Source of the DNA: a virus
DNA: 31,391 nucleotides
Strand: one strand, 5' to 3'
IMG/VR virus record: IMGVR_UViG_3300028025_003054
Coordinates: 1-31,391 of that record
Shown here piece after piece: positions 6,610 through 31,172 of the stretch. The notes beneath the pieces are model-generated. The model searched no databases. It saw only the letters and a program-made list of their open reading frames with translations, and was not told the origin of the DNA. The position numbers were made by a program, and so were the translations under genes. Numbering within the stretch: the first letter of the stretch is position 1; each line of letters starts with the position of its first letter.

Positions 6610-7275
6610 CTAAAATGTTACTGATACGGACTTTTCATCTTCCCAAGAATGGGATCGTATCCATGAAGCCGGATAAGGAATGAATTGTCCACCCTGCTTA
6701 AACCATTCAGGCGATTGTTTCTGCCATTCTAATGCTTTAAGAACAACTTCTATATTAGGTCTTATCGTATTCCAAGCTTTTCTAGCATCTTCCTTTTTTT
6801 TCTTTTTAGGAAATGCCTGCCAAAATATTTCAAAGTCTTTAGAGATGTATTGGTTATTGGTTATTAAGTTATTGGTTATTGGTTTATGGTTAGTGGTTAG
6901 TTGAACGCCCGTTGATTTTATTTCAACGCCCGTTGAACGCCCGTTGGAATTCGCCCGTTTTTCAGCGCTTAAACGACCTGCCTTACTAGCAGTTTCAAGT
7001 CTTTCTTTATAAGTTTGTATCTCACGATCTGACCTTCCTTGAACATAACCGCCTTCAGTTTTAGTCCAAAAGTCCATAAGAACATTTCGCATAGCTTGTT
7101 TTTCATCTTCAGTCCTCGCATTAAATAATCTAAAAAGTTTATCTTCATCAGCCGGAAGCGGCTTTTCATCAAGATAATACTGATCTAATAACTGTCGATA
7201 GCACCCATGTTCAAGCAATGATAAATGAGTTGTATCCTTGCGGTAATCCGCAATATTGTATTGGTAATAATGCAT
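6610..7275 (-). CDS. DUF1376-type phage replication protein
   Basis: Probable replication initiator, functional counterpart of lambda O. Residues 1-100 form the DUF1376 (YdaU-like) domain: 'HYYQYNIADYRKDTTHLSLL', 'Y..LLDQYY..E.PLP.DE'. Residues 105-142 are a low-complexity linker (GRSTGVEIKSTGV..., TNNHKPITNN-type) whose DNA is made of repeats. Residues 147-216 are the C-terminal domain seen in replication proteins of this class ('FEIFWQAFPKKKKKEDARKAW', 'IPYPASWIRSHSWEDE'). A GAAAGGGA ribosome site precedes the ATG. It follows the VRR-NUC gene and heads the replication genes. The family is clear; the initiator role follows from context. Confidence 0.82.
   Translation of the reverse strand: MHYYQYNIADYRKDTTHLSLLEHGCYRQLLDQYYLDEKPLPADEDKLFRLFNARTEDEKQAMRNVLMDFWTKTEGGYVQGRSDREIQTYKERLETASKAGRLSAEKRANSNGRSTGVEIKSTGVQLTTNHKPITNNLITNNQYISKDFEIFWQAFPKKKKKEDARKAWNTIRPNIEVVLKALEWQKQSPEWFKQGGQFIPYPASWIRSHSWEDEKSVSVTF
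6850..6959 (-). repeat. Two iteron-like repeat arrays inside the replication gene; candidate origin
   Basis: On the plus strand, 6850-6899 is built from TTGGTTA heptamers: exact at 6850, 6857 and 6872, with one-base variants at 6879, 6886 and 6893. Next to it the octamer CGCCCGTT occurs four times, beginning at 6906, 6927, 6938 and 6952, three of them inside AACGCCCGTT. One AT-rich array next to a GC-rich array within the linker of an initiator gene is the layout of lambda-type origins. The origin role is inferred. Confidence 0.6.
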
Positions 7276-8901: not shown

Positions 8902-9447
8902 ATGAAAACATCGGAAAGCATCAAACAGATTGCTGAAGCTTTAGTGTCGGCGCAAAAAGAAATTAAATTTGCCGTTAAAGATTCTACCAATCCTCATTAC
9001 AAATCTAAATACGCTAACATCAATTCAGTTATTGATGCGGTTAAAGCGCCATTAAACAACAATAATATTGCAATACTTCAGTCGTTAAGTCCATCCGATG
9101 ACGGAAAACTACATTTAACTACTCGTTTAATTCATAGTTCGGGGGAATGGATTGAAGATACTGCCGTCTGCCCTTTGCAAAAACAAGATGCGCAAGGATT
9201 AGGTAGCGCAGTTTCTTACATTCGCCGTTATAGTTTATCTGCATTTTTAAGCCTTTATTCTGATACGGATGATGATGGCCAATCTGCCGCCCTTAATGCC
9301 GCAGATTATCTTCAAAAAATTAACCATAGTCAAACATTGGAAGAGTTACAGGCTAACTATAATTTTGTTATGGGTGAAGTTAAGAATGATCGCACTTTAT
9401 CTAAAATGGTTATTGAAGCTAAAGATAAAAGAAAGGCAGAGCTATGA
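8902..9447 (+). CDS. erf: ERF-family single-strand annealing protein
   Basis: Recombinase that anneals complementary single strands, as Erf of P22. The 181-residue protein shows the conserved core: 'LVSAQKEIKFAVKDSTNPHYKSKYANINSV' near the N-terminus, a middle 'LLTTRLIHSSGEWIED' type beta segment, and 'DAQGLGSAVSYIRRYSLSAFLSLYSDTDDDG', the family's best-known motif. An AAGGATAAG leader precedes the start. The partner exonuclease (YqaJ type) is encoded two genes downstream, the standard pair for phage double-strand-break annealing. Confidence 0.93.
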   Translation: MKTSESIKQIAEALVSAQKEIKFAVKDSTNPHYKSKYANINSVIDAVKAPLNNNNIAILQSLSPSDDGKLHLTTRLIHSSGEWIEDTAVCPLQKQDAQGLGSAVSYIRRYSLSAFLSLYSDTDDDGQSAALNAADYLQKINHSQTLEELQANYNFVMGEVKNDRTLSKMVIEAKDKRKAEL

Positions 9448-9617
9448 TTACAGGCACAAAAAACAGTAGTTTTTACGGAGTGGAGTTATCCTATTCGGCT
9501 AGAGAATTAATGGCACTAGAAGCCCGTAAAACAAGAATAGAAGCCTTAAAAAGAGCAATGGGTGATAAATACCTATTAGCACCATTAACTAAAAAATTAA
9601 ATAAACCACTTAAATAG
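9444..9617 (+). CDS. 57-residue hypothetical protein
   Basis: Starts with ATG overlapping the erf stop (ATGA) and ends 8 bases before the exonuclease gene. Helical and basic: 'SYSARELMALEARKTRIEAL' then 'KRAMGDKYLLAPLTKKLNKP'. No family recognised. Its place between annealase and exonuclease suggests a role in that pair, or simply a small passenger. Confidence 0.65.
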   Translation: MITGTKNSSFYGVELSYSARELMALEARKTRIEALKRAMGDKYLLAPLTKKLNKPLK

Positions 9618-9625
9618 GAACTTAC

Positions 9626-10300
9626 ATGGAAAGAATTATTAGGGGTATTGAGCAGGGCAGTTCCGAATGGATGGCTTTGAGAATTGGCCGCATAGGTGGA
9701 TCACGCATAGCTGATCTGCTTACTGAAGGTCGCGGCGGTGCTGAATCTTTAACTCGCCGTAAATATAAAAATGAATTAATTAGGGAAAGGCTAACAGGTA
9801 AAAAATTAGAAACTTATAAAACACCTGCAATGCAACGAGGAATAGATTTAGAACCAATGGCTAGAGCATGGTATGAAGTTAAATATAATACTTTTGTTGA
9901 TCAAGTAGCCATTGTTAAACATCCTACTATTGAAGGTGGCCAATGTTCACCGGATGGCCTAGTTGATGCTACTAATTCTTTAATCGAAATCAAAATACCC
10001 AATCCCGAAAACCACTTGGACAACATCCTTACGGGTGGCAAACAGTTAGATCAGTATTACGATCAGGTTATGTGGCAATTGGCCTGCGTTCCCGGCTCTA
10101 ATAGGAATGAAAAAAGAGAATTTTGCGATCTTGTATCTTTTGATCCTGATATGCCGGATCATTTACAAGGGTTCGTAAAGCGTATTTATCGGGATGATAA
10201 ATATATTAAAACAATGGAAACTGCGGTGATCGCGTTTTTATCTGAAATAGAAACTATCGTTAATAACTTAAAGGAAATACAAAATGGCAATAACCCATGA
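9626..10300 (+). CDS. YqaJ-like (lambda-exonuclease fold) recombination nuclease
   Basis: 5'-3' exonuclease partner of the ERF annealase. Signature features: 'GSSEWMALRIGRIGGS' at the N-terminus; 'RGIDLEPMAR' with E76; 'SPDGLVD' with D110; 'LIEIKIP' giving E121-x-K123; and 'YYDQVMWQLAC', the Q-x-x-x-Q helix that closes the active site. Length (224) is normal. AGGAA lies before the ATG; the end overlaps the following gene by 17 bases. Confidence 0.93.
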   Translation: MERIIRGIEQGSSEWMALRIGRIGGSRIADLLTEGRGGAESLTRRKYKNELIRERLTGKKLETYKTPAMQRGIDLEPMARAWYEVKYNTFVDQVAIVKHPTIEGGQCSPDGLVDATNSLIEIKIPNPENHLDNILTGGKQLDQYYDQVMWQLACVPGSNRNEKREFCDLVSFDPDMPDHLQGFVKRIYRDDKYIKTMETAVIAFLSEIETIVNNLKEIQNGNNP

Positions 10301-12083: not shown

Positions 12084-12510
12084 TTAAACTTTCTATCACT
12101 ATTTCAGGACTAACAAATTTATCTGCATCATGTTCTGTATGTTCCCACCATAGGAATTGGTTTTGAACCAAATTGTTCCGATCCTTTAAAAGATTAATAT
12201 TTTTGGGATGCCCAAATATTAGAGGATCAGAAACAGACCATAGAACTATACCATATTTTTGTCTGTCCCAACAAAAATGTTGAAAAAAAGAATCGCAACT
12301 TATCCATGTTCTGCATTGATCGACAAGGCTTCCAAGCTCATCTAGTGATAAGTTTTTTCTAAAGTCATCAACCAATTGTTCTTCACCTTCTATGCCTACT
12401 TGAACTATTGGCTTATCGATTAGTCTAATAAGTTCCTTCCAGTAAGGATAGTTTTTAGGATTAGCCTTACCATTTCTTAAACTTTTAGAATATGGGCTAA
12501 TAATAATCAT
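12067..12510 (-). CDS. GT9 (heptosyltransferase-like) C-terminal half
   Basis: 147 residues that begin at 'MIIISPYSKSLRNGKANPKNYPYW', which looks like the start of the second Rossmann domain of GT9 sugar transferases, and continue with 'IVQVGIEGEEQL', 'LGSLVDQCRTWISCDSFFQHFC' and 'SDPLIFGHPKNINLL', the nucleotide-sugar side of that fold. The N-terminal domain is missing here, but the protein encoded just upstream ends in a segment that looks like it; the two genes overlap by ATGA. Together they may form one two-domain transferase. Likely to glycosylate virion proteins or host surface glycan (inference). Confidence 0.72.
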   Translation of the reverse strand: MIIISPYSKSLRNGKANPKNYPYWKELIRLIDKPIVQVGIEGEEQLVDDFRKNLSLDELGSLVDQCRTWISCDSFFQHFCWDRQKYGIVLWSVSDPLIFGHPKNINLLKDRNNLVQNQFLWWEHTEHDADKFVSPEIVIESLNANFP

Positions 12511-13475
12511 AGATATAACTTCTTATAAGCATTTTCCAAGCTATCAGTCCATTTCCATTCAGCCATCTTTTTATAAATGCTCCATTGATCCACATCGCCA
12601 AATAAAGCTTGAGCTTCAGCAATAGGTCTGCCGGGAATAATTTCAGGATAACAAGTAAATATTTCTGCATTTGTAATGTGCGGCATTACACGCTTAAATA
12701 CAATATGATCGCCCATGCCCACATTTAAAACTACAATTTTTTTATCTTTATAAGCTAAAGTATTTCTAAAAATTAATTCATCATGTTTATATAGTTGCTC
12801 ATTATTTTCTGATCTAATGCCGCCTTGTGGGTTTTTAAGATGCCATGTAGTTGCATCAGGAACAACTAAAAGTTTATAGCCTTTTTGATGTAGGCCATAA
12901 GTAAATAATGTTTCCTCTCTATGTGCTACTCTTGACAAACCTAAATTGTAATCATGGATGCCGGCGCGATAGAGAAAAGAGCAATGTAAATGCTCAACTT
13001 CTTTTGTTTCTTTTATTTCCGCCCATTGAATATTAGGTTCTCGATCAATATCTTCTATTTTGCCTGTGCATTTAGAAGTATCAGGATTAAAAGGCAAAGT
13101 TAATATTGCGCCACCTATAGCTCCAACCTCATCATAACTGTAACTATATAATGTTTCTAATACATTAGGTTCGGGTATGGCATCATCATCCACGCGCCAA
13201 ACCCAATCATAGCCCATAGTATTTGCCATTTGATGAATATGATGTTGGCCTTTTTTAGGGGCATATATCCATTCCCATTTAATGCCTTTATGTTGCAAGA
13301 TACTAAATAAATGTTGATAAATAAAGTTATTACGCATATCTTCAGGCGCATCATTATCATCAAATATAATTAATTTGTCAGGAAGCTTTGTTTGATTGGC
13401 AATAGCATTGATCACTATTGGAAGTGTTGAATTGTATCGACCTCTTGTCGCCACCGAACATAAAACACTAGCCAT
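12507..13475 (-). CDS. GT2 glycosyltransferase fused to a GT9 N-terminal-like domain
   Basis: Residues 1-240 are a GT-A fold family 2 transferase: 'SVATRGRYNSTLPIVINAI', 'IIFDDND' and the metal-binding 'WRVDDDAIPEP' (D96-D98); 'HREET' (185-189) is the likely base region and 'TWHLKN' near 210 binds metal. Residues 245-322 change character: 'KKIVVLNVGMGDHIVFKRVMP', 'CYPEIIPGRPIAEA' and 'WTDSLENAYKKLYL' resemble the N-terminal domain of ADP-heptose-type GT9 enzymes. The gene overlaps the upstream methyltransferase by 8 bases and the downstream GT9 half by 4. Acceptor unknown. Confidence 0.85.
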   Translation of the reverse strand: MASVLCSVATRGRYNSTLPIVINAIANQTKLPDKLIIFDDNDAPEDMRNNFIYQHLFSILQHKGIKWEWIYAPKKGQHHIHQMANTMGYDWVWRVDDDAIPEPNVLETLYSYSYDEVGAIGGAILTLPFNPDTSKCTGKIEDIDREPNIQWAEIKETKEVEHLHCSFLYRAGIHDYNLGLSRVAHREETLFTYGLHQKGYKLLVVPDATTWHLKNPQGGIRSENNEQLYKHDELIFRNTLAYKDKKIVVLNVGMGDHIVFKRVMPHITNAEIFTCYPEIIPGRPIAEAQALFGDVDQWSIYKKMAEWKWTDSLENAYKKLYL

Positions 13476-14097
13476 GATCCCACCTCATAATCATAAGGTT
13501 ACATCTATTTTTATCATTAATAGTTTGTGGTTGTTCTGCAATGTAACCATGCTCATTAATGTAATTAAATTTAAAGTCGGAAAAGTGTGATTCATTTAAG
13601 CCATGAAGCTTATGGTGTTCGCCCCAAAATCCTACAGGCTCATTATGTGGAGTGGTCAATAAAAGTCGTCTGCAATGTTGTTTTAATTTTTGTGCTATTT
13701 TTAATCCATTATCAATATGCTCAATAATTTCAAAAGCAATAATAGTGTCGTATTGTTTTAAGGGAAAAGTATTAATGTCTGCATAAGCAAAAGATATGTT
13801 TTCATTCCATTGTTGTTCTTGTGCTACTTGAATAATAATAGGATCATAATCTAATCCCATGTAATTAATGTCATTAGGAAGGAACTGTGATCCGTATCCT
13901 GTAGAACATCCTATTTCAAGTATATTTTTACCAAGAAGATGGCGGTTAGCCCAAAGATAACGAGTGGCTTCTCTAGGATAGACAGGATCGCCTTTTAGAA
14001 AAACCGCTCGCTCATAATTGTTAGATAATAAATATCTATATAATTGATCATCATATTGTTTAGCATACGCTAAAGCATCTTGTTTTGTCTTATCCAT
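13468..14097 (-). CDS. Class I SAM-dependent methyltransferase
   Basis: 209 residues with the SAM-binding motif 'ILEIGCSTGYGS' (59-70), the acidic end of strand 2 in 'MGLDYDP' (D83), and 'DTIIAFEIIEHI' (motif IV region), the pattern of Methyltransf_11/UbiG-like enzymes. No DNA-methylase catalytic motif (NPPY, PC) is present, so a sugar or small acceptor is more likely. It overlaps the GT2 gene, which suggests that the two act on the same glycan, for example by capping it. Confidence 0.88.
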   Translation of the reverse strand: MDKTKQDALAYAKQYDDQLYRYLLSNNYERAVFLKGDPVYPREATRYLWANRHLLGKNILEIGCSTGYGSQFLPNDINYMGLDYDPIIIQVAQEQQWNENISFAYADINTFPLKQYDTIIAFEIIEHIDNGLKIAQKLKQHCRRLLLTTPHNEPVGFWGEHHKLHGLNESHFSDFKFNYINEHGYIAEQPQTINDKNRCNLMIMRWDHG

Positions 14098-14106
14098 TAA
14101 TGTCCT

Positions 14107-16509
14107 TTATGCGGCTGGATATACGGCATCCACTAATTGTCCCGAACTTAAAGCAGTTGCAAAAACTATTTGATTGCCTGAAGTTACAGTTACATCGCTT
14201 CCATTTCTCATTCTAACGCCTTGTAAATATACATCAATTTTACCTGAAACATAATTTAAGCTTGTCGAAAATGTAGTTTGCGATGCAGTTGATGTAAATG
14301 TATCGTAAGTTAATGATCCTGTTGATACGCCTGAATAGCCTGAATAGCCTGATATACCACTAAAACCACTAGCGCCATTTTGGCCTGAAAATCCGCTTAT
14401 TCCAACTGCGCCTGAATATCCGCTATAGCCTGAATAGCCTGATATTCCCACTTGACCACTATATCCTGAAATTCCTTCAGCTCCACTAAATCCGCTATAA
14501 CCACTAATTCCGCTAAAGCCTGAATAACCTGAAAAACCGCTAAAACCTGACACGCCAATATTAATACCTGTGTAAGCAATAGCTTGAACAACATCGGTTA
14601 CTGTGCAAGGGCTAATAGTAAATGATGTGCCATTAGTAGCCACTACATCAGCATCAGCTAATTTAGCACCATTTCGATATACATCTAAATAACCAACAGT
14701 ATATGAAACATTAAATACAGTTTGCCCGGCAGTAGGTGTGAAATCAGTTACAACTCTTGCGGTGCTAGTTGCGTTAATGCCACTATAGCCACTATAACCA
14801 CTATAGCCTGACACGCCCGAACCTGAATAGCCTGAATAACCTGAAATGCCACTTGCGCCTTCAGCTCCACTAAAGCCTGATATACCTGACGCGCCATTGA
14901 TGCCACTATAACCTGACAAACCTTGTTCGCCACTATAGCCGGAATAACCTGAATATCCTGACAAGCCGGGAGCGCCAATTTCGCCACTCCATCCACTATA
15001 GCCGCTAAATCCGCTTATACCTTCCGCACCTGAATAGCCTGAAAAACCACTATATCCACTAGCTCCATCAGCACCGCTAAAACCGGATATACCTGAAGCG
15101 CCATTAATGCCACTAAATCCGCTTAAACCTTGTTCGCCACTATAACCACTATAGCCGCTATAACCACTTAAACCTTGAGCGCCAACCTGTCCCGAATAAC
15201 CGCTAAATCCGCTAATGCCTGACGCTCCGCTAAAACCACTATAACCACTAAAACCACTATAGCCACTAAAGCCTGATACACCATTAACAAGAGCAAATAT
15301 TAAATCATGATTATTAGAAAAACCTGTAGTGCCTGTGCCTACACTTGAAATTAAATTAACAGGGTATTCCCAATAAGAAGTAGAAGTGCCTGCATTATAA
15401 TGAATAGGCGTTCCATTAATTTCCCAAGTTTGAGAATTAGAGCTTGAAGTTCTATCTTGAATAACAAATTGTTCGGTTTCTTTTAGTAATGCCAAATAAA
15501 TATCAACATCATCATTATTTTGAGTAAGATGTGAAACACTAATTGCCGTTGCACTTATTTGAGTTGCATTGTTCCAAGTTAAATATCCATTTCCCGGATA
15601 ACCTGATGTTGCAGTTGTATTTGCATTGTATTCAAAAAAGCTTGATGATGAGCCGGGAGTTCCGCTAAATCCGCTAATGCCTGAATAGCCTGACGCACCG
15701 CTAAATCCTGAAAAACCTGATTGACCTACTTGTCCGCTAAAACCGCTATAGCCACTAAATCCTGACAAACCAACTTCACCGCTAAAACCGCTATAGCCTG
15801 AATATCCTGATTGGCCATCTTGACCTGAATATCCGCTTAAACCATTTATTCCTGAATATCCACTAAAACCTGATATGCCTGACGCGCCGGAATAACCACT
15901 TAATCCGCTAAAGCCTTGCGCACCAACTTCGCCTGAAAAACCACTAAAGCCTGATATACCGGATGCGCCAATTTGGCCACTAAATCCACTAAAACCACTA
16001 TAGCCACTAGCGCCGTCTAAACCCGAATAACCACTTAAACCATTTACGCCTGAATATCCGCTATATCCGCTTACGCCTGATCCGCTAAAACCTGAATAAC
16101 CTGATATACCACTAGCGCCATTTTGACCTGAATAGCCACTAAAGCCACTAATTCCTTGTGCGCCACTAAAGCCACTTATGCCTTGAGGGCCTGTAGCTCC
16201 ACTATAACCACTTATACCTGATCCTGAATATCCGCTAAATCCTGATTGACCACTATAGCCTGATTGACCACTATAACCTGACTGACCATCCTGACCACTA
16301 TATCCACTAAAGCCTGATATACCTTGTGGGCCTGTAGCACCGCTAAAACCACTATAGCCGCTAAAGCCGCTAGCTCCACTACCGCCTGCGCCACTATAAC
16401 CTGAAAATCCTGAAAAACCTGATAAACCACTATATCCTGATTGACCAGCAGTAGTAAGCTCAACTGTTAAATTATTTGAATCAACAACATCTATTTGATA
16501 ATTAGCCAT
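14107..16509 (-). CDS. Collagen-like tail fibre, Gly-X-Ser repeats
   Basis: An 800-residue fibre with three stretches of strict Gly-X-Y triplets, about residues 24-285, 407-580 and 648-732, mostly G-F-S, G-Y-S, G-A-S and G-I-S with rare G-P-Q. Three non-repeat domains interrupt or end it: about 286-406 ('FFEYNANTTATSG...', beta-rich), about 583-647 ('GQTVFNVSYTVGYLDVYRNG') and the C-terminal 734-800 ('SQTTFSTSL...GKIDVYLQG'). The last two are related beta modules found on many phage fibres. A trimeric collagen-like stalk with receptor-facing heads is likely. It follows the tip and fibre genes, and glycan enzymes follow it. Start ATG at 16509. Confidence 0.88.
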   Translation of the reverse strand: MANYQIDVVDSNNLTVELTTAGQSGYSGLSGFSGFSGYSGAGGSGASGFSGYSGFSGATGPQGISGFSGYSGQDGQSGYSGQSGYSGQSGFSGYSGSGISGYSGATGPQGISGFSGAQGISGFSGYSGQNGASGISGYSGFSGSGVSGYSGYSGVNGLSGYSGLDGASGYSGFSGFSGQIGASGISGFSGFSGEVGAQGFSGLSGYSGASGISGFSGYSGINGLSGYSGQDGQSGYSGYSGFSGEVGLSGFSGYSGFSGQVGQSGFSGFSGASGYSGISGFSGTPGSSSSFFEYNANTTATSGYPGNGYLTWNNATQISATAISVSHLTQNNDDVDIYLALLKETEQFVIQDRTSSSNSQTWEINGTPIHYNAGTSTSYWEYPVNLISSVGTGTTGFSNNHDLIFALVNGVSGFSGYSGFSGYSGFSGASGISGFSGYSGQVGAQGLSGYSGYSGYSGEQGLSGFSGINGASGISGFSGADGASGYSGFSGYSGAEGISGFSGYSGWSGEIGAPGLSGYSGYSGYSGEQGLSGYSGINGASGISGFSGAEGASGISGYSGYSGSGVSGYSGYSGYSGINATSTARVVTDFTPTAGQTVFNVSYTVGYLDVYRNGAKLADADVVATNGTSFTISPCTVTDVVQAIAYTGINIGVSGFSGFSGYSGFSGISGYSGFSGAEGISGYSGQVGISGYSGYSGYSGAVGISGFSGQNGASGFSGISGYSGYSGVSTGSLTYDTFTSTASQTTFSTSLNYVSGKIDVYLQGVRMRNGSDVTVTSGNQIVFATALSSGQLVDAVYPAA
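14330..16440 (-). repeat. Low-complexity DNA coding for the Gly-X-Ser triplets
   Basis: Highly repetitive 9- and 18-base units encoding GFSGYSG-type peptides, broken by unique blocks at about 15290-15650 and 14570-14765. Synonymous codons vary between units, so the repeat is kept at protein level more than at DNA level, but recombination between units could still change the fibre length. Confidence 0.8.
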
Positions 16510-28042: not shown

Positions 28043-28708
28043 TTACATTACCAATGGTTTATAAGGTCTTAATAAACAATCTACTCCATAAGGAATCTTT
28101 TGCAAACCACTTGCAACTGATTCTGATCTATTATTATAAAGATGCGTAAATAATAATAAGCCAGCTTGCTTAATTACAGGATAAGCCTGTGTAAAGTTTG
28201 CATTTTGTGTATATTCAACAATAACAGGGCTTGTTCTATAAGTGCTTACATCCGATGGAATACCGCTACTTAAAACAACTTTATTTCCTGTCGAATCATA
28301 GTAATAACTACTAGAAGCAATAGTTGTTAAAGTGCTTGGTGTGTTCCCATTGTAATAAGCAACTTTATTAATAGCTAAATTACCGCTATTAAACTTATCA
28401 ACATAACTTGTAACTGGTAAATCTAAATAAACAGGCGTTGAAAAATTAGCTGATAAGCCATAGTAAACTCTATATGCAGTAGGAAAGATTGACATACCAA
28501 GATAATCTTCAATATGCATACGAACCGCTAGTTCCAAACTTTCCAAGTAAGTATCTTGCGATTCGTCAGTTCCTAAATTTAACTGTTGCGCTATTTCGTC
28601 TATACTTAACCAGTTTGTAGTTAAGTCGCGACTAATCTGTTCAAATTTATCATAATTGAACGGATTGCGAGTAGTTCCATACGGCACTTGCCCAAGCGTG
28701 TCGCTCAT
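28043..28708 (-). CDS. Head-tail connector (gp6-like adaptor)
   Basis: 221 residues. 'TYLESLELAVRMHIEDYLGMSI' is the typical helix of gp6-like connectors; a beta insertion with 'VYLDLPVTS' and 'VEYTQNAN' follows, then the closing helix 'AYPVIKQAGLLLFTHLYNNRSE'. It would form the ring between the portal and the stopper. Immediately downstream of the second capsid gene. Confidence 0.85.
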   Translation of the reverse strand: MSDTLGQVPYGTTRNPFNYDKFEQISRDLTTNWLSIDEIAQQLNLGTDESQDTYLESLELAVRMHIEDYLGMSIFPTAYRVYYGLSANFSTPVYLDLPVTSYVDKFNSGNLAINKVAYYNGNTPSTLTTIASSSYYYDSTGNKVVLSSGIPSDVSTYRTSPVIVEYTQNANFTQAYPVIKQAGLLLFTHLYNNRSESVASGLQKIPYGVDCLLRPYKPLVM

Positions 28709-28710
28709 TA

Positions 28711-29769
28711 TTAAACCCCTACTAAAAATACGCCTGCAAAAGGATTTCTAACAGTTGATGCTAATCGTTTTTCTGCAAATAAAGTAATAAAGCCCGGTGC
28801 AGTTTGATCAAAGCGTTTAATATTCATTTCCTCTGCATCAGCAATAGTTAAGAATTGATCCCAATTTGCTAACACGCCTGAAATTTTACCTGCGGCTGGA
28901 GCATCTAAATAAGGATTAACAATTACCGGGAATCCAAATAAATAAACTAATGATCCACCATCTTCCGTTCCCGTTTCAACAAACATTGGAGCGCCACCTG
29001 TCGATCCTTTTAATTTTCTTAATTGAGAAATTAAAGAAGGATGTAAGTGCCATGCAGTTGTAGGTAATGCCCAATATTGACCGGGCAATAAATTGGCCGC
29101 ATTAACAATATCGTCATAAGTGATTGCTGAAGCTGAAAACTCTTCTTTTAAAATAGTATGAATACCATTAGTTATAGCAGTTCCACTTGAGCCATAAGAT
29201 GCGGCTGAAGTGCTTGTGTTATAAACAACTAAACCGCGCAAACCGCTAGTTCCACCGGTTGTTGTTGTTGTTGATCCTGCTTGATCGTTGTTAATAGCCA
29301 TCGACTGTGCTTCTAGCGATGATAGCTCTAGCATTAAGTCGTTAGAAATAGCTGGATCGATGCCATTAATATCATCCATAACGGCAGTTCTAATTGGTAA
29401 TTGTGCAGTAATAACTCTAGTGGGCAATTGCCATATTGTTGTAGCAATATTTGGGCTACCACTATTAGGAGTTACAGGGTATGTAAAAGGGTTTGTTGCG
29501 TCTGCGGCATTACCTGTTTTAGCCACAAATTGAGCGGCTGATCCTGTGTATGTAACTTGACGGCTTCCCATTCTAAATGGGTTTGCATATCTTAAAGCGG
29601 CAAAAGCGTCATCAAAATAAACTCGACCACCAATATTTAAGCCTGATCCTGTTAGCGTTGATGCTTCTTCTACATCTTTGGTCTTATTATTATCAGTAAA
29701 ATTAACTGTGGCTTGACCTTCAGTTAAAGCCTGTTTAATGCCATTTAAAATTTTTTCAGATGTATTCAT
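28711..29769 (-). CDS. Second HK97-type major capsid protein paralogue (short form)
   Basis: 352 residues. It shares a long series of motifs with the capsid gene before it: 'EASTLTGSG..IGGR', 'FAALR..NP.R..SR', 'QF.AKTGNA', 'PIRTA..DDI.G', 'EAQSM.INNDQ', 'SGLRGL', and near the end 'EKRLAS...PFA'. It lacks the first 90 or so residues of that protein (the coiled-coil scaffold-like arm) and starts close to where the mature capsid domain begins. The start has an AGGA ribosome site (TTAGGAATACAAATG), no promoter is seen, and a terminator hairpin lies upstream, so it should be made in lower amount. Role: minor capsid subunit, vertex or alternative capsid (inference). Confidence 0.88.
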   Translation of the reverse strand: MNTSEKILNGIKQALTEGQATVNFTDNNKTKDVEEASTLTGSGLNIGGRVYFDDAFAALRYANPFRMGSRQVTYTGSAAQFVAKTGNAADATNPFTYPVTPNSGSPNIATTIWQLPTRVITAQLPIRTAVMDDINGIDPAISNDLMLELSSLEAQSMAINNDQAGSTTTTTGGTSGLRGLVVYNTSTSAASYGSSGTAITNGIHTILKEEFSASAITYDDIVNAANLLPGQYWALPTTAWHLHPSLISQLRKLKGSTGGAPMFVETGTEDGGSLVYLFGFPVIVNPYLDAPAAGKISGVLANWDQFLTIADAEEMNIKRFDQTAPGFITLFAEKRLASTVRNPFAGVFLVGV

Positions 29770-29790
29770 TTGTATTCCTAATTAGTTAAG

Positions 29791-29819
29791 AAAAAAAGGC
29801 GGCGATAAAACCGCCTTTT
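29791..29819 (-). terminator. Terminator hairpin between the two capsid genes
   Basis: Read on the minus strand: AAAAGGCGG, an eight-base loop, CCGCC and a run of seven T. This is a 9-bp stem with U-tract, 19 bases after the stop codon of the first capsid gene and 22 bases before the second capsid start. Partial termination would leave the first capsid gene as the most expressed of the operon. Confidence 0.9.
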
Positions 29820-29837
29820 CCCCGTATTACATTAATG

Positions 29838-31172
29838 CTATAGATCAGCAGTTGCAGTTGATCTGTAACGAACTAAAGCAAAAGGATCAACAATAGATGT
29901 TGCTAATCGTTTTTCGCCATAGAAAGTAATAGAACCTGGCAATGTTTGATCATAACGGCGTAATACCATGTTTAAACGATCAACAATAGTATGACCTCTA
30001 GTAAAATCACCAAAATACATTGGATATAAACTATCAGTTCCAGCCGATGCTGAATATTTAGAAGGTGCATTTACATAGGTATTAACTACAACATCAAAAC
30101 CTAGTAATGAGCCTACAATACCATCATTGCGTGCTAAACCATCAACATAAATTGGTCTGCCTTGTGTATCTGTTAAACCACGAATTGCTGAAAGCATTAC
30201 AGGGTTAATAACAAATTTAGCATTAGGTGTCCAATATGCTTGTGGTAATGCATAAACAAAATTAACAACATCTTCATAAGTTACATTGTTTGTTAATGCG
30301 TTTCCGTTTGTTGTTAATTGATCGTATGTTGCTAGATCATGCAAACCATCGCTTGATGCTGTGCCTGATGAGCCAAAATCTGAAGCTGATGTTGTGCCGC
30401 CTGTGTAAGAAGCATTAGCGCCCGGATATTGATTAAGACCGCGTAAGCCGTCAGAACCACCACCGCCAGTTGGACTAGCCACACCTTGATCGTTGTTTAT
30501 AATCATAGATTGAGCTTCGCGTTGGCTAAATTCAGCTAACATATCTGAAACTACATTAGATTCCAAACCATCGATGTCATCTAAAGCCGCAGTTCTAATT
30601 GGGAATTGAACATTCAAATCTTTTAAGTTTAATTGCCAAATTGAAGTTGCTTCAGTTGTAGCCGCAGTATTATTAACAATACCATAACCCCAACCAGCGC
30701 CAGCATTACCTGTTTTAGCTCTAAATTGATATGTAGAAGCGTCAGTAGCAACAGAACGAGATACACCGCGCATAGGATTTTCTAAACGCAATGCCGCAAA
30801 TACTGGATCATAAGCAGTTCTACCACCAATGCCAGCGCCTGAACCTGTTAGAGTTGAAGCTTCTTTGAGGTATGCGTCATATTGACCAGCATCTTCAAAC
30901 ATTTTAATTTCTTTTTCTACGCGACCATTGCCTTTCATAAATTCAGCAAGTTGTCCTTTAACCATACGATTAACTTCTTGCGAAATTGATTTGTATGTTT
31001 TAATTGTTGTAGGTGCATTAATTGAAGCAACTTTAGCTTCAAGTGCCGCAACTTTTTCATCAAAAGAAGCTACAGTTTCAGCAAGTTTAGCATCAACAGT
31101 AGCAGTTACTTCTTCTACCTTTGCTAAATTTGCCGCTTCTATAGCGTCTAGTTTTTCAATGATTTTTTCCAT
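29838..31172 (-). CDS. HK97-type major capsid protein with N-terminal scaffold-like arm
   Basis: 444 residues. Residues 1-60 are a coiled coil ('KLDAIEAANLAKVEEVTATVD', 'SFDEKVAALEAKVASI'), typical of the delta/scaffold arm removed by the prohead protease; residues about 105-444 are the capsid domain with 'IGGRTAYDPVFAALRLENPMR', 'SQREAQSMIINNDQ' and the closing 'YGEKRLATSIVDPFALVRYR'. AAGGAT lies before the ATG. The protease cut should fall near residues 90-106 (inference). Probably the main shell protein because of the arm, strong leader and following terminator. Confidence 0.92.
   Translation of the reverse strand: MEKIIEKLDAIEAANLAKVEEVTATVDAKLAETVASFDEKVAALEAKVASINAPTTIKTYKSISQEVNRMVKGQLAEFMKGNGRVEKEIKMFEDAGQYDAYLKEASTLTGSGAGIGGRTAYDPVFAALRLENPMRGVSRSVATDASTYQFRAKTGNAGAGWGYGIVNNTAATTEATSIWQLNLKDLNVQFPIRTAALDDIDGLESNVVSDMLAEFSQREAQSMIINNDQGVASPTGGGGSDGLRGLNQYPGANASYTGGTTSASDFGSSGTASSDGLHDLATYDQLTTNGNALTNNVTYEDVVNFVYALPQAYWTPNAKFVINPVMLSAIRGLTDTQGRPIYVDGLARNDGIVGSLLGFDVVVNTYVNAPSKYSASAGTDSLYPMYFGDFTRGHTIVDRLNMVLRRYDQTLPGSITFYGEKRLATSIVDPFALVRYRSTATADL

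Follow-up and report, generated by a model that had tools for sequence, protein, structure and literature searches.

The window, by which we mean the whole 31,391-nt stretch analysed here, is a virus record whose right end truncates a prohead protease gene, and the genes considered below lie on its minus strand close to that end (Table 1). In the direction of transcription the order is the protease tail, a major capsid gene (A), a 68-nt spacer, a second capsid gene (B), a head-tail adaptor gene and then the tail genes, A being transcribed before B. The protease gene stands directly upstream of A and is of the S78 type; residues 67-180 of APC43889.1, its counterpart in the Methylophilaceae phage P19250A, match Pfam Peptidase_S78 (PF04586). 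Judging from the gene order of that phage, terminase and portal genes would be found past the contig end.

Table 1. Features of the capsid gene region, in positions of the window
Feature	Position	Strand	Evidence
S78-type prohead protease, C-terminal 71 residues, truncated by the contig end	31176..31391	-	90% identity to P19250A APC43889.1 residues 199-269
A, major capsid protein, 444 aa, ATG start	29838..31172	-	ORF, BLASTP, PHROGs, Pfam, AlphaFold2, fold search
Parts of A: scaffold (delta-like) domain with long N-terminal helix, residues 1 to ~103 (boundary taken from the conserved EASTLTGSG motif rather than from cleavage mapping); HK97-fold capsid domain after it			
Hairpin resembling a terminator, in the A-B spacer, core GGCGG...CCGCC with seven T after it	29790..29823	-	Folding against shuffles, conservation
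B, paralogous capsid protein, 352 aa, ATG start	28711..29769	-	ORF, BLASTP, PHROGs, Pfam, AlphaFold2, fold search
Parts of B: ~34-residue leader without long helix; HK97-fold capsid domain after it			
Head-tail adaptor (Ad1-type), first gene after B	28043..28708	-	phrog_40/phrog_442, Pfam PF05135

Elsewhere in the window, an 800-residue tail fibre (14107-16509) is made up mostly of collagen-like repeats, with nine Pfam Collagen stretches, and adjoining glycosyltransferase-like and methyltransferase-like genes follow just after it (12507-14097), possibly for modification of the fibre or of the host surface. At 8902-10300 and 6610-7275 an ERF-type annealing protein with a YqaJ/RecE-type exonuclease and, on the other strand, a DUF1376/primosomal protein constitute a small recombination and replication set.

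A preliminary description of this DNA had taken the two genes to be tandem paralogs encoding HK97-type capsid proteins, and this was borne out. In a single BLASTP comparison the proteins share 137 of 338 residues (41%, E=1e-68), their profiles align at 43% identity (E=7.8e-91), both match the phrog_10 major head protein in PHROGs, and both match Pfam Phage_capsid (PF05065) above its curated cut-off of 24.2 bits, A with 120.7 bits (1e-34) and B with 57.6 bits (1.7e-15). No sequence match to the T4 gp23/gp24 family was obtained, Pfam at E<=0.001 returning PF05065 only and PHROGs returning only phrog_10 and phrog_15928. The AlphaFold2 models are of moderate confidence (pTM 0.72 for B, 0.59 for A), and for both the best fold match is the RcGTA capsid, that of the Rhodobacter gene transfer agent (B to 6tsu_B5, Z 23.4 over 263 residues at 3.8 A; A to 6tb9_A4, Z 21.6 over 255 residues at 4.0 A), with the HK97 capsid 1ohg reaching Z 17.4 for B and 15.8 for A. 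These searches place both proteins in the HK97 fold and do not distinguish a hexamer role from a pentamer role. Three segments of A, residues 251-258, 286-292 and 372-379, are missing from the middle of the capsid domain of B; we take this region to be the A-domain, with limits drawn from the secondary structure of the B model and the topology of HK97 rather than from a superposition of coordinates. Residues conserved in both A and B are densest in the N-arm region (12 of 30 columns), and only 10 positions are conserved but different in the two proteins, these being spread over more than one region.

The two proteins differ at the N-terminus. A starts with a 49-residue helix (residues 2-50 in the AlphaFold2 model) and has about 103 residues ahead of the stretch EASTLTGSG, and it thus carries the helical N-terminal domain of about 100 residues that characterises HK97-like fused scaffolds, with the motif at about residue 104. 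This domain is absent from B, the leader of which has about 34 residues, with a predicted helix at residues 3-17 (AlphaFold2), and ends in the same EASTLTGSG stretch. The earlier claim that only one of the two carries a scaffold arm therefore holds for the long helix, which A alone possesses, but not in the sense that B is armless. The further suggestion that B needs no protease maturation is not upheld, since B keeps its short leader and, as in A, the motif at the leader end, so that it may well be processed too; in T4, a precedent for such trimming, the prohead protease removes 10 leader residues from gp24 and 65 from gp23 (PMC9958956, in excerpt).

The motif varies between genomes. In P19250A both proteins read AGLQGSG where those of the window read STLTGSG, which might suggest that a cleavage motif has co-evolved in the two proteins. 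This was rejected: in the A proteins of L052, L168, L172 and L238 a glycine-rich GNPAG form replaces the motif at the scaffold end, while B retains LTGSG, and we therefore claim only that conservation of the motif is shared.

Among 50,697 phage records, P19250A (KX815270.1), which infects the freshwater LD28 clade, was the sole match to B and the sole close match to A. It has both genes in the same place and in the same tandem order, with portal and S78 protease genes upstream of the pair; its 462-aa A is 71% and its 352-aa B 72% identical to those of the window, although it is annotated as having a "gene transfer agent capsid protein" (A) and only a "hypothetical protein" (B). In IMG/VR, 267 relatives were found by an A scan and at least 597 by a B-profile scan, the best 80 of each being taken. 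The genome of P19250A is 38.7 kb, and most of the long contigs of the clade are 35-39 kb. One contig, L291 (IMGVR_UViG_3300022748_000017), has 75,987 nt, about twice the usual length, and may be a concatemer or a misassembly.

To avoid bias, the presence of B was counted only in loci found by A queries. The first set comprised 127 such loci, from which 10 without an A end and 2 with less than 200 nt downstream were left out and identical A ends merged, and among the resulting 98 distinct loci with at least 200 nt downstream, B lies directly after A in 97. A scan with a divergent A protein gave the same order in 67/67 distinct informative loci among its best 80, and a second divergent-A scan, with 74 new loci among its best 80 and 5 of these too short, in all 62 distinct loci; the three sets share contigs and are not additive. 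The sole exception, L204, is a MAG contig that begins with the last 69 codons of A and continues with ORFs that look bacterial by eye; as a probable chimera or broken end of a prophage it carries little weight. The two-copy arrangement, which the preliminary description proposed to survey in related phages and which might have been absent from the close ones, is thus fixed in the clade.

Outside the clade the pair was not seen. Relatives of the single capsid protein of the Rhizobium phage RHph_X2_25, which is 25% identical, gave 78 loci, and B follows the capsid gene in none of 65, in a BLAST test that would miss a very divergent B; the locus scans are pattern-based and biased to near relatives. 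No single-copy intermediates of about 57% to 25% identity were found among the best matches to the divergent A queries and one outgroup query, and the duplication is therefore not datable inside the clade. Two single-capsid outgroups have a protein of about 140 residues matching phrog_5707 between the capsid gene and the adaptor, in the slot of B (L247:4919-5344 and L248:4888-5310).

A tree built by a quick method with no bootstrap from 3 outgroup proteins and 78 proteins each of A and B places all B proteins on one side of a branch with an SH-aLRT value of 100, which fits a single old duplication fixed in the clade; tree and locus counts together point to an A/B split that is both old and fixed. 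This agrees with the earlier view that recent duplication is less likely, and a recent duplication or an assembly artefact can be rejected on the same two grounds, the two-copy order in all informative clade loci but one and the single old split. As judged from codon comparisons, purifying selection acts on both genes, with median dN/dS values, over 1193 non-independent pairs from 139 loci, of 0.19 (A) and 0.17 (B); as the two values are similar, loss of function in B was rejected.

B is nevertheless more divergent between genomes than A, with a mean identity of 60% against 69% (78 genomes). Across 64 genomes the identities of A and B are correlated at 0.53, the lowest value of the six gene pairs formed by protease, A, B and adaptor, the others giving 0.62-0.75. 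Among all pairs of 180 loci, many of them redundant, a close A is accompanied by a distant B in 303 and the reverse holds in 100. Tight co-adaptation of A and B was therefore not found, and these comparisons indicate that the two genes are exchanged separately between related genomes. In one such locus, L025, compared with the window, L024 and L017, A is 91% identical to that of the window while B groups with the B of L024.

The spacer between the genes is itself conserved in structure. In the window, an 86-nt stretch here forms a better fold than 197 of 200 shuffles (z -2.96). A G+C-rich hairpin, defined as at least 6 pairs of which at least 4 are G-C, was present downstream of A at 161 of the 162 distinct junctions; at 140, three or more consecutive T lie at its foot. 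By the same definition hairpins were found in 11/150 cases around the B stop, 6/149 before A and 120/3240 mononucleotide shuffles. Across the junctions the inner six-pair stem takes 58 different forms, so that the structure persists despite changes in sequence. A terminator scan of the entire window gave 13 candidates where shuffles averaged 11.3, which is no excess, and the case for the hairpin therefore rests on its conservation and not on the motif alone. Three outgroup phages with a single capsid gene also have a hairpin after that gene; the element was thus probably present before the duplication and did not arise for the sake of B. It is most simply understood as an ancient attenuator or mRNA 3' end following the major capsid gene, beyond which the duplicate B lies, and its conservation after A suggests that A is made in excess of B.

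In several sub-lineages (e.g., L080, L081, L101, L197, L198, L235, L254-L257) B has about 440 residues, with about 90-100 residues before the usual leader and a normal spacer (L080:2816-3110 and L101:5936-6230 for the extra part). The added domain matches phrog_2859 and occurs in separate branches of the B tree. It is also found near the start of long annotated major capsid genes in the Synechococcus phages S-CBS1 and S-CBS3 and the roseophage CRP-406, and within the annotated capsid maturation protease of phage DSL-LC01. Its position in the long capsid genes, as in S-CBS1 and CRP-406, suggests that the N-terminus of B belongs to head assembly; the domain would then imply that this N-terminus points into the procapsid interior and is able to carry a load.

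Three known systems are helpful for comparison. The scaffold of HK97 and D3 is an N-terminal domain of the capsid protein itself, 102 residues long in HK97; in D3 it forms towers beneath each capsomer, taken as coiled coils, and also clamps the inner surface of the shell, before being removed by proteolysis (PMC12749128, in excerpt). A resembles these proteins in its helical N-terminal domain of about 100 residues and the S78-type protease gene upstream; the difference is that in HK97 and D3 a single capsid protein forms both hexamers and pentamers. In T4, as in the clade, the capsid gene has been duplicated within one phage and the paralog has the shorter leader, here about 34 against about 103 residues to the motif. 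According to the excerpted account (PMC9958956), gp24 forms the pentamers, is about 20% identical to gp23 and is the minor copy, both copies are processed by the prohead protease, and some gp24-bypass mutations map to the A-domain. T4 differs in its prolate head and in having a core that is separate and digested by protease (same excerpt), whereas here the phage is HK97-type, of about 38 kb, with the scaffold fused to A.

The staphylococcal satellite SaPIbov5 offers the third comparison. Its Ccm is likewise an HK97-type capsid homolog with a shorter leader domain beside a full-length capsid protein (CP), that of the helper phage phi12: it is 24% identical to CP, has a delta domain of 87 residues against 128, and occupies pentamers only, the hexamers being helper CP; Ccm expressed without phi12 gives no capsids, and in phi12/SaPIbov5 the A-domain packs around the capsomer centres (PMC8569155, in excerpt). 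Unlike Ccm, which is satellite-encoded and redirects helper heads, B is conserved and belongs to the phage itself, lying within its head gene run.

We propose, with an even chance of being right, a division of labour within one shell, in the manner of T4 gp24 and SaPIbov5 Ccm. A would drive procapsid assembly through its N-terminal scaffold domain and form the hexamers; B, with an HK97-fold shell domain and short leader but no coiled-coil scaffold tower, would be unable to form a shell alone and would enter the procapsid of A at the pentameric vertices. We infer this placement from the missing A-domain segments together with the shared N-arm residues, which would suit contact with A at the ring border and a different packing within B's own ring. 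The S78 protease of the same genome would trim both proteins at the equivalent site, and the hairpin after A would keep its transcript more abundant than that of B, connector and tail genes, thereby setting the ratio of the two proteins. Capsid T number scales with genome size (PMC8814770, in excerpt), and from this scaling and genomes of 35-39 kb we infer T=7, that is, 360 copies of A and about 55 of B. An extension of this proposal, which we regard as unlikely, holds that the duplication split a scaffold-bearing from a tower-less capsid protein, so that no bundle lies under the pentamers and the space there, with the exchangeable N-terminus of B, holds a protease, an interior domain or cargo, the B with the extra domain being the loaded form.

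Of the roles suggested in the preliminary description, vertex protein and mixed shell both remain live options, and no support was found for a decoy or a size variant. A mixed shell, in which B has no fixed site but is built in alongside A at many positions or throughout, hexamers included, and adjusts stability or curvature, would be in keeping with the common fold, the common N-arm motif, the profile identity and the similar selection on both genes, but we consider it unlikely: in both experimentally solved pairs, T4 (PMC9958956) and SaPIbov5 (PMC8569155), the excerpted sources put the paralog at pentamers only, and the attenuator-like hairpin conserved upstream of B argues for unequal amounts. 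Ccm acts on phi12 through pentamer occupancy (PMC8569155, in excerpt) as a governor of head size, and B could by analogy fix curvature, and hence size, by early entry at vertices or elsewhere. Ccm, however, redirects the heads of a foreign phage, while B is present in nearly all informative loci of a clade whose contigs are mostly 35-39 kb, so no second head size is implied and such a role appears quite improbable.

It is just as improbable, in our view, that B sits at one special place instead of all vertices, such as a ring adjacent to the portal, or carries cargo there. The location of B past the hairpin, in one gene run with connector and tail, and the extra N-terminal domain of some B genes would be compatible with this, yet there is no direct sign of it and no precedent in the literature examined. 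A role outside the finished virion, as assembly regulator, decoy or chaperone, or as a cement protein added externally, could find a parallel in the small phrog_5707 gene that takes B's slot in two single-capsid outgroups; we hold it to be very improbable, because B keeps a full capsid fold, the N-arm motif and a leader, features for which a decoy or cement protein has no obvious need.

How five-fold and six-fold rings are made from one fold is a long-standing question of capsid assembly, to which T4 and the staphylococcal satellite have answered with a second capsid-type protein. A dedicated vertex paralog is therefore already known as a solution; what appears new here is the two-capsid pair in this clade, no report of the arrangement in these phages having been met in the literature searched, a search that the original P19250A genome paper (Moon et al. 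2017) lies outside. Apparently the same solution has become fixed in a large clade of freshwater phages with genomes of about 38 kb, and this clade offers many natural combinations of A and B, two proteins set cleanly apart by the scaffold domain, with P19250A available as an isolate.
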